Origin: Sorangiineae bacterium NIC37A_2
GTDB lineage: Bacteria; Myxococcota_A; Polyangia; Polyangiales; Polyangiaceae
Reading direction: 5' to 3'
DNA length: 49,754 bases
NCBI GenBank assembly: GCA_002085155.1
Contig: NASX01000035.1
Coordinates: 5-49,758 of the forward strand
How positions within the stretch are numbered: position 1 is the stretch's first letter; each line of letters begins with the position of its first letter. The translations under genes were made by a program, and so were the position numbers. The notes under the pieces were generated by a model. It was not told the DNA's origin, searched no databases, and was given only the letters and a program-made list of their open reading frames with translations. Shown one piece after another: positions 46,132-49,705 of the stretch.

Positions 46132-47670
46132 ATGCTGTTCGGAAGAAGATTGAACCAATTCACGCTCGTCGGGACGGGAGCTCTGCTCCTCGCTTGCGGT
46201 GGCTCCGACGGAGTCGACGGGGTCGACGGAAAAGATGGCAAGGACGGGAAGAATGGCACTTCTGCGGTGATGCGACTCACCGAAGAGCCGCCAGGAGAAA
46301 ACTGTGAGGACGGTGGGCAGAAGATCGAGTACGGCGCAGATAAAAACGAAAACGGCAAGCTCGATGACGCCGAAGTTGAGGGTACCGAATTCGTTTGCGA
46401 TGGCGTCGCCGGCGCAACGGGTGCGACAGGTGCGGCCGGTCCAAGAGGTCCGGCCGGCGCCACAGGCGACGCGGGCCCGACCGGGCCACGCGGAGAAAAG
46501 GGCGACACGGGCGAGACGGGCCCTACCGGACCGAAAGGGGATACGGGACCCACGGGGGACACGGGACCGACGGGGGACAGCTGGGGAATGGGCGGCGCAA
46601 TGCCTGGGCCGGTCGGTCCCACAGGACCAACGGGACCAGCGGGACCAGTGGGGCCAACAGGCGATACAGGACCCACAGGCGACGCGGGGCCAACGGGCGA
46701 CACGGGACCGACGGGGCCAACGGGCGACGCAGGGCCCACGGGACCGACGGGAGATACTGGGCCAACAGGGCCGACCGGCGATACAGGGCCCACCGGAGAT
46801 ACAGGGCCCACCGGAGATACAGGACCCACCGGCGATACAGGGCCCACCGGCGATACAGGACCCACAGGACCGACGGGGCCAACAGGCGACGCAGGACCCA
46901 CGGGACCGACGGGAGATACTGGGCCAACAGGTCCGACGGGGGATATCGGGCCAGCGGGGCCGACGGGCGACACTGGGCCAACAGGACCCACGGGGGACAC
47001 AGGACCGACGGGGCCAACAGGACCGTCTGGTTACAATTCACTCATCAGAGTCACCGCTGAGCCGGCGGGGTTCAATTGCGACAGCGCTGGTCTCAAGATC
47101 GAAGTCGGAATCGATGATGGAACACCCAGCGGCATCGCTGGCAACAACATCCTCGAGCCAGGTGAAGTCGATCAGACCGAGTACCTCTGTTCACCACCGA
47201 CCGAGAGGATCGTGTTCGTCACGAACTCTCTGTACTCAGGGGCGATCGGGGGGATAGCCGCGGCAGACGCCATCTGCCAGAGCGAAGCGGATCTCGAGGG
47301 GCTACCGGGCACCTACTTCGCGTGGCTCGCAAGTAGCACCGAGACCGCTCCCGCAAGCCGATTCACGCAGTGGAACGTTCCCTATGTCCTACCCAGCGGC
47401 GGAACCGTCGCGAACAGCTGGGCGGATCTCGTCGATAACGCCCTCCTTCAGGCCATCGATGAGCTCGCGAGCGGGACGGTCATTGGTGGGCCAACCTGGA
47501 CCGGCGTGAACGGTGACGGGAGTTGGTCCGGATCGGATTGCTCGGGATGGACGAGCTCCTCAGGCCTCGGCACGAATGGCGAAACCGCCGCGACTTCTTC
47601 ACTTTGGACGAATACCGAGGTCCCGCTCAGTTGTTCTTCGAACTTCCGCCTGTACTGCTTTCAGCAGTAG
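46132..47670 (+). CDS. Collagen-stalk lipoprotein with endostatin-like (DUF1554) head, paralogue 1
   Basis: The 512-aa protein begins with a signal peptide and lipobox LLLAC (Cys22), which would fix it to a membrane. Next is a Cys-containing module (about 43-90) with a perfect EF-hand-type loop at Asp70-Glu81 ([12 protein letters not shown]). The collagen stalk runs about 92-300 in [12 protein letters not shown] triplets, broken once at about 151-159 (GMGGAMPGP). A second copy of the Cys module (about 302-355) follows, then a head domain (about 360-512) ending in LYCFQQ. Head cysteines are 382, 470, 501 and 509. The head matches DUF1554 and, in order and spacing, animal endostatin. It is probably a trimeric, calcium-stabilised surface fibre with a lectin-type fold at the tip; ligand and trimerisation are inferred. 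Confidence 0.88.
46630..47028 (+). repeat. Tandem 9- and 18-bp repeats encoding the collagen stalk
   Basis: The stalk DNA is built from units such as GGGCCCACCGGAGATACA, repeated with one- or two-base changes. Around 46790-46865 five almost identical 18-bp units stand in a row. Such arrays change length by slippage, so the stalk length may differ between strains. The repeat is coding, not a CRISPR array: units are directly adjacent, with no spacers. Confidence 0.8.
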
Positions 47671-47671
47671 G

Positions 47672-47695
47672 GCGTCACCGCCCGGGGCGTGACGC
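47672..47695 (+). terminator. Hairpin just after the first collagen-stalk gene
   Basis: GCGTCAC at 47672-47678 pairs with GTGACGC at 47689-47695, 1 base after the stop codon. No T-run follows. It may act with the larger hairpin at 47707 as a termination or mRNA-stabilising region. Confidence 0.45.
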
Positions 47696-47706
47696 GCCAC
47701 ACGAGT

Positions 47707-47741
47707 CCCATCGGGGCGGCCCCTTGAGGTGCCCCGATGGG
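47707..47741 (+). terminator. Strong hairpin, probable terminator of the first collagen-stalk gene
   Basis: CCCATCGGGGC at 47707-47717 and GCCCCGATGGG at 47731-47741 form a perfect 11-bp stem with a 13-nt loop. The following bases are GAACGTTAAC, so there is no poly-T tract. In high-GC bacteria such stems often terminate without one. Confidence 0.55.
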
Positions 47742-48133
47742 AACGTTAACAGTCTGCTCACGTGAGCGGGTGACTCGTTCGCTCACATTGAGCGAGGTCC
47801 ACGGAGAGGAGCTCCTAGCTCTCGAGTCGGCGCAGGCTGGTGTCCAGCGTCACCGAGAGCGACACGGCAATGGAGGCCCTTCCTGACCCCCAACTCTATT
47901 CGGGCACGGTTGCCCACATTGTGCCCAGCGAAGCGCGCGAACTTTGCGGACCTGACCGAGCCTTTGAGCCCAGCGCCCGACCATGTGCATCACGCATTTC
48001 TCACCCTCGCTCGCGCAGCGCTTGCCCTTTCTGACGCATCGACTAACGCGCTCAAAGGCTGAAATGGGGAGACCTCCTATCCGCGCTGAGACTGGGTCAG
48101 GGGGAAGACCAATCACTATAGGAGCCATTTGCG
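47742..48133. other. 392-bp intergenic stretch with long inverted repeats and no gene
   Basis: The stretch holds GTGAGCG/CGCTCAC (47762-47786) and a perfect 11-bp pair, AGCCTTTGAGC (47959-47969) and GCTCAAAGGCT (48050-48060), 80 bases apart. It should contain the promoter of the second collagen-stalk gene; TATAGGAG before 48134 is a possible ribosome binding site. No RNA family was recognised. Short frames here have no ribosome binding site. Confidence 0.4.
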
Positions 48134-49705
48134 ATGAACCTGAGAAGAAGTCTCACAAAACTTACATTCGTATCGACGGGAACCCTCGTCCTTGCCTGTA
48201 GCGGCGATGCCATCGACGGGAAGGACGGCGAGGACGGCAAGGACGGAAAAGACGGCGTCTCCGCGGTCATGCGGCTCACGGAGGAGCCCCCGGGCGACAA
48301 CTGTGATCGGGGCGGCCAGAAGGTCGAATACGGCCCTGACAAGAATGGAAACGGAAAGCTCGACAACAGCGAAGTCGAAGGGACCGAATACGTTTGTGAT
48401 GGCGTCCCAGGATCCACGGGCGCACGCGGTCCAGCCGGCGCCACAGGTGACACGGGCCCAACAGGTCCGACAGGACCCATCGGGGCCACCGGCCCCACTG
48501 GACCCGCAGGCGAAAAAGGCGACACCGGCGACACTGGGCCCGCCGGCGACAAGGGCGACACCGGTGAAAAGGGAGACACAGGCGACAGCATAGGGATGGG
48601 CGGCGCTATGCCCGGACCAGCAGGGCCTCCGGGCCCCACAGGCGACACCGGGCCCGCTGGACCGACGGGCGACGCCGGGCCTGCTGGTCCGACGGGCGAC
48701 ACCGGACCTACCGGTGAACCCGGACCCGCGGGTCCCACAGGCGAAACAGGACCCACGGGTCCCACGGGTGAAACGGGGCCCACAGGCCCCACGGGTCCCA
48801 CGGGCCCCACGGGCGATGCGGGACCGACCGGTGAGACCGGCCCCACGGGTCCCACCGGGCCCACCGGCGATACCGGCCCCACGGGTCCCACGGGTGAAAC
48901 GGGGCCCCCAGGCCCCACGGGTGAGACTGGACCCACCGGACCCACGGGCCCGACTGGTCCCACTGGCGACACTGGCCCAACAGGACCGACCGGCGATACC
49001 GGACCGACGGGTCCCGCGGGAGACACGGGGCCCACAGGACCGACCGGCGCCACCGGACCGTCCGGTTACAATTCGCTCATCAGGCTGAGCCCTGAATCTG
49101 CTGGAAACTACTGCGCCGTAGACGGCCTCAAGATCGAGGTCGGTATCGACGACGGCGAGGGCGACGGCATCGCTGGCAACGGAATCCTCGAGGAGGATGA
49201 GGTCGACCAAACCGAGTACATCTGCCAGCGAACCCCGAAGAAGGTGTTCGTCACTAGCACGACGTACACCGGTGACTTCGCGTTGATCGCCCACCCAGAC
49301 GAGATTTGCCAGGACCACGCCGAAGACGCGAACCTGTTCGGCACCTACCGGGCGTGGATCGCCTTCGACGAAGACACTCATCCGTACAGCACCTTCGCTC
49401 GCTCGACGATCCCCTACGTCCTGCCGGATGGAACCCCGGTTGCCAACAACTGGGACGGCCTGGCGTACGCCGATCTCCTGCATCCCATCGACCAAGATGA
49501 AAATGGAAACGCAGCCCCACCCTACGCCTGGACCGCAGTCCACAGAGATGGAGTTTTCGTCGGCTCGGGATCGGAGTGCAATGGCTGGACGTCGACGGAA
49601 AACTTCGGTCACGTAGGCGAGACGAGCCTCACCGCGCTCGAGTGGTCAAACGTGGGAGCTGCCGCTTGCTCCGATTCCTACGCCCTTTACTGCTTCCAGC
49701 AGTAA
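48134..49705 (+). CDS. Collagen-stalk lipoprotein with endostatin-like (DUF1554) head, paralogue 2
   Basis: The 523-aa protein has the same layout as its neighbour. The lipobox is LVLAC (Cys22). A Cys module carries an EF-hand-type loop at Asp69-Glu80 ([12 protein letters not shown]). A Gly-X-Y stalk runs about 92-310, broken at about 153-161 by the same [10 protein letters not shown] second Cys module (about 312-370) is followed by a head of about 150 residues ending in LYCFQQ. Head cysteines are 392, 482, 512 and 520 (gaps 90, 30 and 8). The stalk uses GPTGET and GPAGPTGDT triplets and different codons from paralogue 1, so the duplication is not recent, or the repeats turn over fast. The pair may form separate or mixed trimers on the cell surface. 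Confidence 0.88.

Follow-up and report, generated by a model that had tools for sequence, protein, structure and literature searches.

In collagen XV, the collagen region is followed by a trimerisation domain of ~50 residues, a hinge and an endostatin-type domain (PMC7852327), and a survey of the human proteome counts the Endostatin Pfam domain among those exclusive to extracellular matrix (ECM) proteins (PMC4224354). Among bacteria, Stevenson and others arrived in 2007 at endostatin-like models for the LenA to LenF proteins of Leptospira; these proteins bind laminin, fibronectin or factor H, and the binding of LenA and LenB to laminin is inhibited by heparin (PMC2063517). Lcl of Legionella is a trimeric lollipop in which a collagen stalk is joined to a lectin-like DUF1566 head (PMC11162425). 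The gene pair analyzed here, from Sorangiineae bacterium NIC37A_2 (contig NASX01000035.1 of GCA_002085155.1), lies in a stretch of 49,754 nt, called the window hereafter, and encodes proteins with a lipid anchor, a collagen stalk and an endostatin-type head. An earlier note on this DNA supposed that the full order had not been described. Indeed, the titles and abstract openings of the listed matches on endostatin, DUF1554, leptospiral and bacterial collagen-like topics describe no bacterial protein in which an endostatin-type head tops a collagen stalk, and the searches for endostatin-like proteins in myxobacteria and for DUF7151 returned no literature. Each half is nevertheless known from other bacteria, having been anticipated by Len (2007) and by Lcl, so that only the joining of the two went unseen in the literature searched.

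Organization of the gene pair

Both genes, with all features given below, lie on the + strand, gene 1 at 46132..47670 (512 residues) and gene 2, its tandem paralogue, at 48134..49705 (523 residues), in agreement with the two open reading frames of the earlier note. A Shine-Dalgarno-like sequence, read by eye, precedes each ATG, and a scan of 45820–49754 for promoters and terminators gave no excess over shuffled sequence. The products share one domain order: a lipobox, a DUF7151 domain, 68–72 Gly-X-Y triplets, a second DUF7151 domain and a head of 157–159 residues. The signal peptides (46132..46197 and 48134..48199), also read by eye, carry the lipoboxes LLLAC and LVLAC, in which the lipid cysteine is Cys22 and is followed by Gly and Ser, respectively; 7 (protein 1) and 5 (protein 2) Gly-X-Y triplets stand shortly after it. 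The first DUF7151 copy (Pfam PF23657) covers residues 45–89 of protein 1 (46264..46398), with Cys58, Cys89 and an acidic 13-residue loop, and residues 44–88 of protein 2 (48263..48397).

As in bacterial collagen-like proteins, the Gly-X-Y region is long and comprises two runs per protein separated by an 8-residue break, with 20 + 48 triplets in protein 1 (residues 91–150 and 159–302, 46402..47037) and 21 + 51 in protein 2 (residues 90–152 and 161–313, 48401..49072), that is 68 and 72 triplets; the whole proteins match Pfam Collagen (PF01391) at 5e-31 and 9.9e-33. The second DUF7151 copy, placed between stalk and head, was delimited from the sequence and, for protein 1, from a second AlphaFold model (residues 302–353, 47035..47190, with Cys316 and Cys353; residues 313–364, 49070..49225), so that the stalk is flanked by DUF7151 on either side (Pfam, 5e-32 and 6.3e-29). 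These DUF7151 domains did not figure in the first description of the locus. The heads occupy residues 356–512 (47197..47667) and 365–523 (49226..49702), and their cysteines, when recomputed, fall at the positions first reported, 382/470/501/509 and 392/482/512/520, with gaps of 88/31/8 and 90/30/8. The paralogues are identical at 121 of 233 positions (52%) of the C-terminal BLASTP alignment, the heads at 44%. The order lipid anchor, collagen stalk, endostatin-type head is borne out by the lipoboxes, the triplet counts and the head homology that follows.

Relationship of the heads to endostatin

Whole proteins 1 and 2 match DUF1554 (PF07588) at 1.4e-5 (25.3 bits) and 0.0012 (19.1 bits), both below the curated Pfam cut-off of 27.5 bits, which is exceeded by head 1 in isolation (30.4 bits) and, in a genome search, by protein 1 with its neighbours (30.8 bits). 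The cut-off of the Endostatin family (PF06482, 29.4 bits) is missed by protein 1 (15.1 bits, 0.018) and by isolated head 1 (19.5 bits), and the Pfam scan of whole protein 2 reported no Endostatin match. No Pfam match at E <= 1 was obtained to DUF1566, the Lcl head family. Compared alone with PDB sequences (phmmer), head 1 retrieved endostatin at 3.2e-4, and head 2 gave no match at E up to 10. The profile of a 75-head alignment (A5), from which 7 of 80 loci were left out as partial (L082, L083, L092, L094, L128) or long (L135, L140), reached 1.2e-13 and the A2 profile 5.2e-14, only four endostatin sequences being matched at E <= 10. A profile of the 73 other heads detected head 1 at 2.8e-47 and head 2 at 2.0e-41, and the A3 profile of four bacterial endostatin domains at 8.9e-10 and 7.5e-5; 2,000 shuffles scored at best 12.0 and 9.5 bits against real scores of 164 and 145 (73-head profile) and of 41.7 and 25.7 (A3). 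At E <= 0.01, 69 of the 75 A5 heads match DUF1554 and 58 match Endostatin. The four cysteines are invariant (75/75) and occupy the columns of those of endostatin in the alignment with 1koe. Apart from them the heads vary widely, with a mean column identity of 30%. Endostatin pairs them 33–173 and 135–165, and from the aligned columns we infer the same nested pairing in the heads.

Head 1 as modelled by AlphaFold (pLDDT 97.5, pTM 0.92) superimposes on mouse endostatin 1koe with Z 21.2 and an rmsd of 1.9 Å over 153 aligned residues. Five endostatin entries gave Z 19.3–21.3, whereas the best other chain reached 4.9, and the Lcl head structure 8q4e only 4.1. In Foldseek the top five matches are endostatins (1.3e-10 to 1.6e-8) and the next one stands at 0.26. 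For the second model, which joins DUF7151 copy 2 and the head, structural matches fall on the head part (54–211), and lectin-like folds other than endostatin reach Z 5.3; for DUF7151 we accordingly claim no new fold and no resemblance to the trimerisation domain of collagens XV and XVIII. The endostatin relation suggested by the earlier note thus stands, the PDB profile matches being to endostatins only and well beyond chance, with the shuffle controls and the structure match in agreement; as judged from the profiles and the predicted fold of head 1, the window heads are related to endostatin itself and not merely to the general lectin-like fold group.

Distribution and proposed function as fibres

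DUF7151+head proteins with long stalks occur in at least 7 of 108 genomes of the host family. Among the matches listed, nine begin at model position 1–2 and extend across DUF7151 and head; the others listed start deeper in this model. Seven such frames outside the window have an unbroken run of 22–71 Gly-X-Y triplets ahead of DUF7151 and head, and the six that were scanned (the second G320 frame was left out) all exceed the Pfam cut-offs for Collagen and DUF7151; the frame L206 repeats the exact order lipobox-DUF7151-collagen-DUF7151-head. Within the genus, no comparable full-length match is present in either of the two other genomes; G329 has a frame in which a short Gly-X-Y region lies between DUF7151 copies, followed by a divergent head that is cut off by the edge of the locus. 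The genes are therefore not conserved core genes. The survey of Gly-X-Y regions upstream of DUF1554-type heads shows that the head is mostly found without collagen: collagen-bearing frames are a minority, 5/124 over a pair of overlapping samples, and in L062, which is among the five, the match stays below the Pfam Collagen cut-off. The counting rules were fixed after inspection of the runs; Gly-rich spacers (L009, L018, L023, L034, L059, L117, L120, L126) and a 6-triplet stretch (L028) were excluded because their triplets are GG-rich or poor in Pro and charge, or the stretch is short, and L106, with six good triplets, stands outside the count of five, although it was treated as collagen-bearing in the AU test below. 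Nothing pointed to a phage-fibre origin: with head 1 as query, tblastn (E <= 0.01) gave no match in 50,697 phage or 72,556 plasmid records, and one viral-contig scan was likewise without a relative.

We propose, with a probability of about 0.6, that the two genes encode lipid-anchored trimeric fibres in which a DUF7151-capped collagen rod would present endostatin-type heads to a partner on another surface. Each product would be secreted and held at the outer membrane by its N-terminal lipid, and the Gly-X-Y regions of three copies would coil together to form a collagen-like rod some 60 nm long, taking the collagen rise of 0.286 nm per residue. DUF7151 would cap both rod ends and probably help the helix to start in register, like the trimerisation domain of collagen XV, and the three putatively disulphide-braced heads at the tip would bind prey, a kin cell, matrix or a particle. 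The pair stems from a tandem duplication, and with head identity down to 44%, each fibre may have a partner of its own. Functional precedents can be seen in the trimeric Lcl lollipop and the ECM-binding Len proteins, and trimeric lipid-anchored lollipop adhesins appear to be the most likely products of the locus.

It is less probable, though not lightly set aside, that the fibres act as a structural spacer or coat that keeps cells or matrix apart, the head being merely a stable cap or trimer seed and not a receptor. DUF7151 and collagen alone could make the rod, and DUF7151-collagen frames recur in the same genome with different tails or tailless, one of them (C21) ending in DUF7151 without a head. 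The varied tails also fit an anchor-and-stalk base that carries exchangeable heads. On the other hand, the head keeps its cysteines yet is very divergent (30% mean column identity) and has been duplicated with divergence, as recognition domains often are, and it occurs mostly without collagen, which argues against the spacer reading.

As to the partner, the analogy of fold and architecture with animal endostatin and Lcl, both of which bind such ligands, together with the heparin inhibition of LenA and LenB binding to laminin (PMC2063517), might point to sulphated glycosaminoglycans or heparin. The heads are acidic, however, with pI 4.05 and net charge −11 for head 1 (3 Arg, 0 Lys) and pI 4.33 and net charge −15 for head 2 (4 Arg, 2 Lys), against pI 9.38 (XVIII; 15 Arg, 3 Lys) and 8.44 for the mouse endostatin stretches; the median pI of the A5 heads is 4.99 and exceeds 8 in 6/75. 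Heparin-type binding is consequently improbable, and from their sequences the window heads are not expected to share the heparin- or laminin-type contacts of animal endostatin and Len.

Origin of the heads and comparison with known systems

A tree was built from 38 hand-picked window-type heads, ten A3-type Myxococcota domains (L032–L035, L214–L219) and two mouse XV/XVIII stretches; its root is unknown, the mouse pair sits on a long branch (1.33) and the bootstrap had not yet converged (correlation 0.951). The mouse endostatins and the ten A3-type domains are split from the 38 window-type heads with support of 100/100, the window heads thus falling outside the group of the animal endostatins. 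The A3-type set is rarer than the window-type heads, has cysteine gaps near 104/30/8 and is linked to them by an hhalign probability of 99.4; all four rows of the A3 alignment score above the cut-off for Endostatin as well as that for DUF1554. Beyond Myxococcota, partial or weak A3-type domains were detected in 2/299 genomes (E <= 1e-15) of the phylum of L140's genome and in 5/297 (E <= 1e-12) of that of L062's genome. The Pfam Endostatin cut-off was passed outside Myxococcota in 2 of 4 genomes tried, one match being the frame of L068, a window-type head from Nitrospina, and within Myxococcota also by some window-type heads, so that it does not divide the two groups of the tree. The support of 94/66 for a grouping with L032 is suggestive of animal endostatins lying inside the bacterial set, the alternative not being rejected (AU p 0.285).

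The earlier note had left the choice between convergent assembly and an old domain transfer. That a collagen-endostatin unit passed between animals and bacteria in one piece would agree with the order of collagen XV (PMC7852327) and with L068, whose scores for Collagen (38.1 bits) and Endostatin (30.6 bits) each exceed the Pfam cut-off, but it is very improbable: the mouse sequences join the A3-type domains against all window-type heads, L068 included, the frames of these ten A3-type domains showed no collagen stalk (3/10 are cut short at the 5' edge of the locus), and DUF7151 copy 2 has no match among PDB sequences (phmmer, a weak test). Moreover, the collagen-bearing heads are scattered over the tree (7 changes), a single clade being disfavoured with AU p 0.026; this value and a second one of 0.039 are only indicative, since the groups were picked after the tree was drawn. 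The combination of collagen stalk and endostatin-type head thus seems to have been built more than once, and, as no stalk was seen in the set that groups with mouse, separate assembly in bacteria and animals fits best. A merely coincidental resemblance within a common C-type-lectin-like fold, for which the weaker lectin-like matches (Z up to 4.9 and 5.3) might be invoked, can practically be dismissed, as the profiles match endostatins only, Z is 21 against 4.9, the four cysteines align and bridging domains pass both Pfam families.

Tentatively, animal endostatin may derive from, or share a recent origin with, a head family of bacterial surface proteins that is present in Myxococcota at least. 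Animals and bacteria would each have mounted a member of this superfamily on the tip of a collagen rod, and the tip of collagens XV and XVIII would then exemplify the repeated invention of a collagen fibre bearing this kind of head. Endostatin is a much-studied matrix fragment, and its placement in a superfamily widespread among prokaryotes, where its near kin are found in Myxococcota and a sister group is itself borne on collagen stalks, provides a concrete, testable setting for the origin of the domain. The locus would also supply naturally occurring heads, braced by disulphides, on collagen rods of bacterial origin that could be produced in E. coli.

Compared with the known systems, the window proteins share with Len, by family and description, a bacterial origin, a probable surface location and probably the Pfam head family DUF1554 (PF07588), to which 69/75 A5 heads have a match; Len proteins have one or two Len motifs each, with no collagen stalk mentioned in the portion of that account considered here (PMC2063517), whereas the window heads are acidic and stand on a collagen stalk flanked by DUF7151. 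Lcl likewise combines a collagen stalk and a lectin-like head in a bacterial protein, but the head is of another family and lacks disulphides, and an N-terminal helix replaces the lipid (PMC11162425). The A3-type Myxococcota domains belong to the same superfamily and are closer to animal endostatin. With collagens XV and XVIII (multiplexins), the window proteins have in common the sequence of parts, in which a small intermediate domain separates the collagen region from a domain of endostatin fold, and the same cysteine columns; they differ in heads that are acidic, below the PF06482 cut-off and outside the mouse group, in the lipid anchor, and in DUF7151 taking the place of the trimerisation domain.

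Domain order of the two window proteins

Both open reading frames of the earlier note are present in the window (46132–47670, + strand, 512 residues; 48134–49705, + strand, 523 residues), and the order it had proposed, lipid anchor, collagen stalk and head, can be read in both proteins. From the N- to the C-terminus, each comprises a lipobox signal peptide, a few Gly-X-Y triplets, a DUF7151 domain (PF23657), the stalk, a second DUF7151 and the head; the DUF7151 copies flanking the stalk had been overlooked. The stalks consist of two long Gly-X-Y runs with an 8-residue break (20 + 48 triplets in protein 1, 21 + 51 in protein 2), and the heads (residues 356–512 and 365–523) contain 157–159 residues with four cysteines each. 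The proteins share 52% identity over a C-terminal alignment of 233 columns, the heads 44%; as judged from these sequences, the two genes are a tandem duplication. A third copy may lie downstream, since the contig ends at 49758, immediately past gene 2.

Long antisense frames rich in Pro, Val and Gly (46020–47000 and 48097–49053, both − strand) mirror the Gly-X-Y repeats and are probably not genes. A large upstream protein of 969 residues (42916–45825, + strand) gives a sole, weak Pfam match under the cut-off (SfLAP, 0.0018). The window encodes one more collagen-like protein, its third, of 382 residues (8560–9705, − strand). This gives weak matches to the N-terminal model of the Bdellovibrio mosaic adhesive trimer (1.5e-5, under the cut-off) and to the BclA C-terminal domain (0.077); it is possibly a further trimeric fibre.

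Endostatin identity of the heads

As a single sequence, head 1 matched mouse endostatin in the PDB (3.2e-4) and head 2 had no PDB match. The A2 profile, built from the two window heads and 29 heads of other sampled genomes, matched only the four endostatin sequences in the PDB at E up to 10, the best at 5.2e-14; the larger A5 profile of 75 heads likewise reached endostatins alone, at best 1.2e-13. A profile without the window heads scored 164 bits for head 1 and 145 bits for head 2, against at most 12.0 for 2,000 shuffles; the A3 profile, built from four bacterial domains closer to animal endostatin, gave them 41.7 and 25.7 bits, the shuffle maximum being 9.5. At the level of sequence, these profile searches decide for endostatin identity, the relation which the earlier note had proposed and for which it had suggested profile and fold searches. 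The AlphaFold model of head 1 (mean pLDDT 97.5, pTM 0.92) agrees: its five best structural matches are all endostatin entries (Z 19.3–21.3, rmsd 1.8–2.1, 149–153 residues), versus Z 4.9 for the best non-endostatin chain, a C-type-lectin-like snake venom protein, and a joint DUF7151-head model gives Z 19.2–21.2 for endostatins and 5.3 for the best other chain. The four cysteines, likened earlier to those of endostatin, do occupy the endostatin cysteine columns in the profile alignment and are conserved without exception in the 75 heads of profile A5; median gaps are 92/32/8 in A5, 104/30/8 in A3 and 102/30/8 in mouse collagen XVIII.

Distribution and joining to collagen stalks

When 282 genomes sampled from the phylum were searched with A1, the profile of the two window heads, 69 contained a match (E ≤ 0.001). 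Scanning a single genome for each species yielded 112 relatives, of which 80 were kept; by record title, they belong to Myxococcota, Acidobacteria, Nitrospina, Nitrospirae, several Patescibacteria groups, Proteobacteria, one Crocinitomicaceae member and, in three records, archaea (two Aenigmatarchaeota). At E ≤ 0.01, DUF1554 (PF07588) is matched by 69/75 A5 heads and Endostatin (PF06482) by 58/75; the latter model finds 35/282 phylum genomes (11/282 over its cut-off) and 0/14 control genomes. The sharper A3-type set, nearer animal endostatin (E ≤ 1e-20), is rare: 5 of 377 genomes contain such domains, 10 in total and all in Myxococcota (L032, L033, L034, L035, L214–L219; six within one genome, G416). 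Each of the four A3 rows hits Endostatin (1.2e-21 to 5.9e-32) as well as DUF1554 (5.5e-7 to 3.2e-11), so that they bridge the two Pfam families. The frames that carry these domains are free of stops, and some have lipobox-like starts (L035, L215, L216, L219) or cysteine-rich repeats, which would speak against eukaryote contamination.

The survey of Gly-X-Y upstream of the head that had been suggested covered 124 frames (80 + 44, overlapping samples; 29 truncated at the 5' end), window genes excluded. Five contain at least 10 unbroken, Pro- or charge-rich triplets: L062 (11), L068 (25), L113 (65), L131 (43) and L024 (33 and 11); L106 has six, and L062 and L106 are below the Pfam Collagen (PF01391) cut-off. 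In the frame titled Nitrospina sp. (L068, 2164–3474), Collagen (38.1 bits), DUF1554 (38.6) and Endostatin (30.6) all score above their Pfam cut-offs. Among 108 genomes of the family, a DUF7151-plus-head profile of 209 positions gave at least nine full matches (start 1–2, end 208–209) in at least seven genomes (the window's own, G000, and G320 twice each; G144, G318, G321, G324, G337), and a comparable full match was lacking in two further members of the window's genus. The seven full-match frames outside the window carry 22–71 unbroken triplets; L206 repeats the exact window domain order, and the lipobox, judged by eye, is clear in five and weaker in L207, L208 being truncated. G320 holds a collagen-gene array (L203, 3091–7375) in which a headless stalk and DUF7151 frame lies between two genes with endostatin-type heads; a G329 frame has a short Gly-X-Y stretch between two DUF7151 copies and a divergent head running off the locus. 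The window's own genome has more DUF7151-collagen frames with other tails or none (contigs C21, C37, C85, C106; L143, L154, L146, L145), and a scan of four such frames revealed no Pfam family besides DUF7151 and Collagen at E 0.01; they fit an anchor-and-stalk base carrying exchangeable heads.

A tree of 50 rows (38 hand-picked window-type heads, ten A3-type domains, two mouse endostatins) separates the window-type heads from the others with support 100/100, the bootstrap not having settled. The mouse pair falls inside the A3-type domains, adjoining L032 (94/66), and the ten as one clade are not rejected (p 0.285). The A3-type frames show no collagen stalk, L033, L034 and L214 running off the locus 5' and L034 having one Gly-Gly-rich spacer. 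Between convergent assembly and old transfer, which the earlier note had left side by side, the simplest reading of these sequences would be separate joining, heads of a single superfamily having been joined to collagen rods independently in bacteria and animals, as the frames nearest mouse show no stalk. Within bacteria the joining probably happened more than once: the 13 collagen-bearing heads require seven changes on the tree, and one clade is weakly rejected for them (p 0.026) and for the nine DUF7151-collagen heads (p 0.039), both groups having been chosen after the tree was seen.

A putative fibre and its known counterparts

Endostatin-like surface proteins, and collagen stalks topped by a lectin-like head, have both been published from bacteria; the part of the literature searched yielded no bacterial collagen stalk with an endostatin-type head, no bridging domains and no tree with animal endostatins. 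DUF7151 copy 2 is predicted to form three strands (mean pLDDT of the joint model 95.0; DUF7151 part 82–94 by blocks), and a phmmer search of the PDB gave no sequence match for it; from its place, it may cap or register the stalk. Glycosaminoglycan binding is unlikely, because the window heads carry net charges of −11 and −15, whereas the mouse XVIII and XV endostatin stretches carry +5 and +2. By analogy with Lcl and Len, each window protein most probably forms a lipid-anchored trimeric fibre about 60 nm in length, the tip of which would offer three heads to a binding partner. Legionella Lcl is described as a lollipop-shaped trimer in which a collagen rod carries a lectin-like head (PMC11162425), and Len as leptospiral endostatin-like proteins binding laminin, fibronectin or factor H (PMC2063517); the window proteins share the rod and lectin-like head with the former and the endostatin-like domain with the latter.
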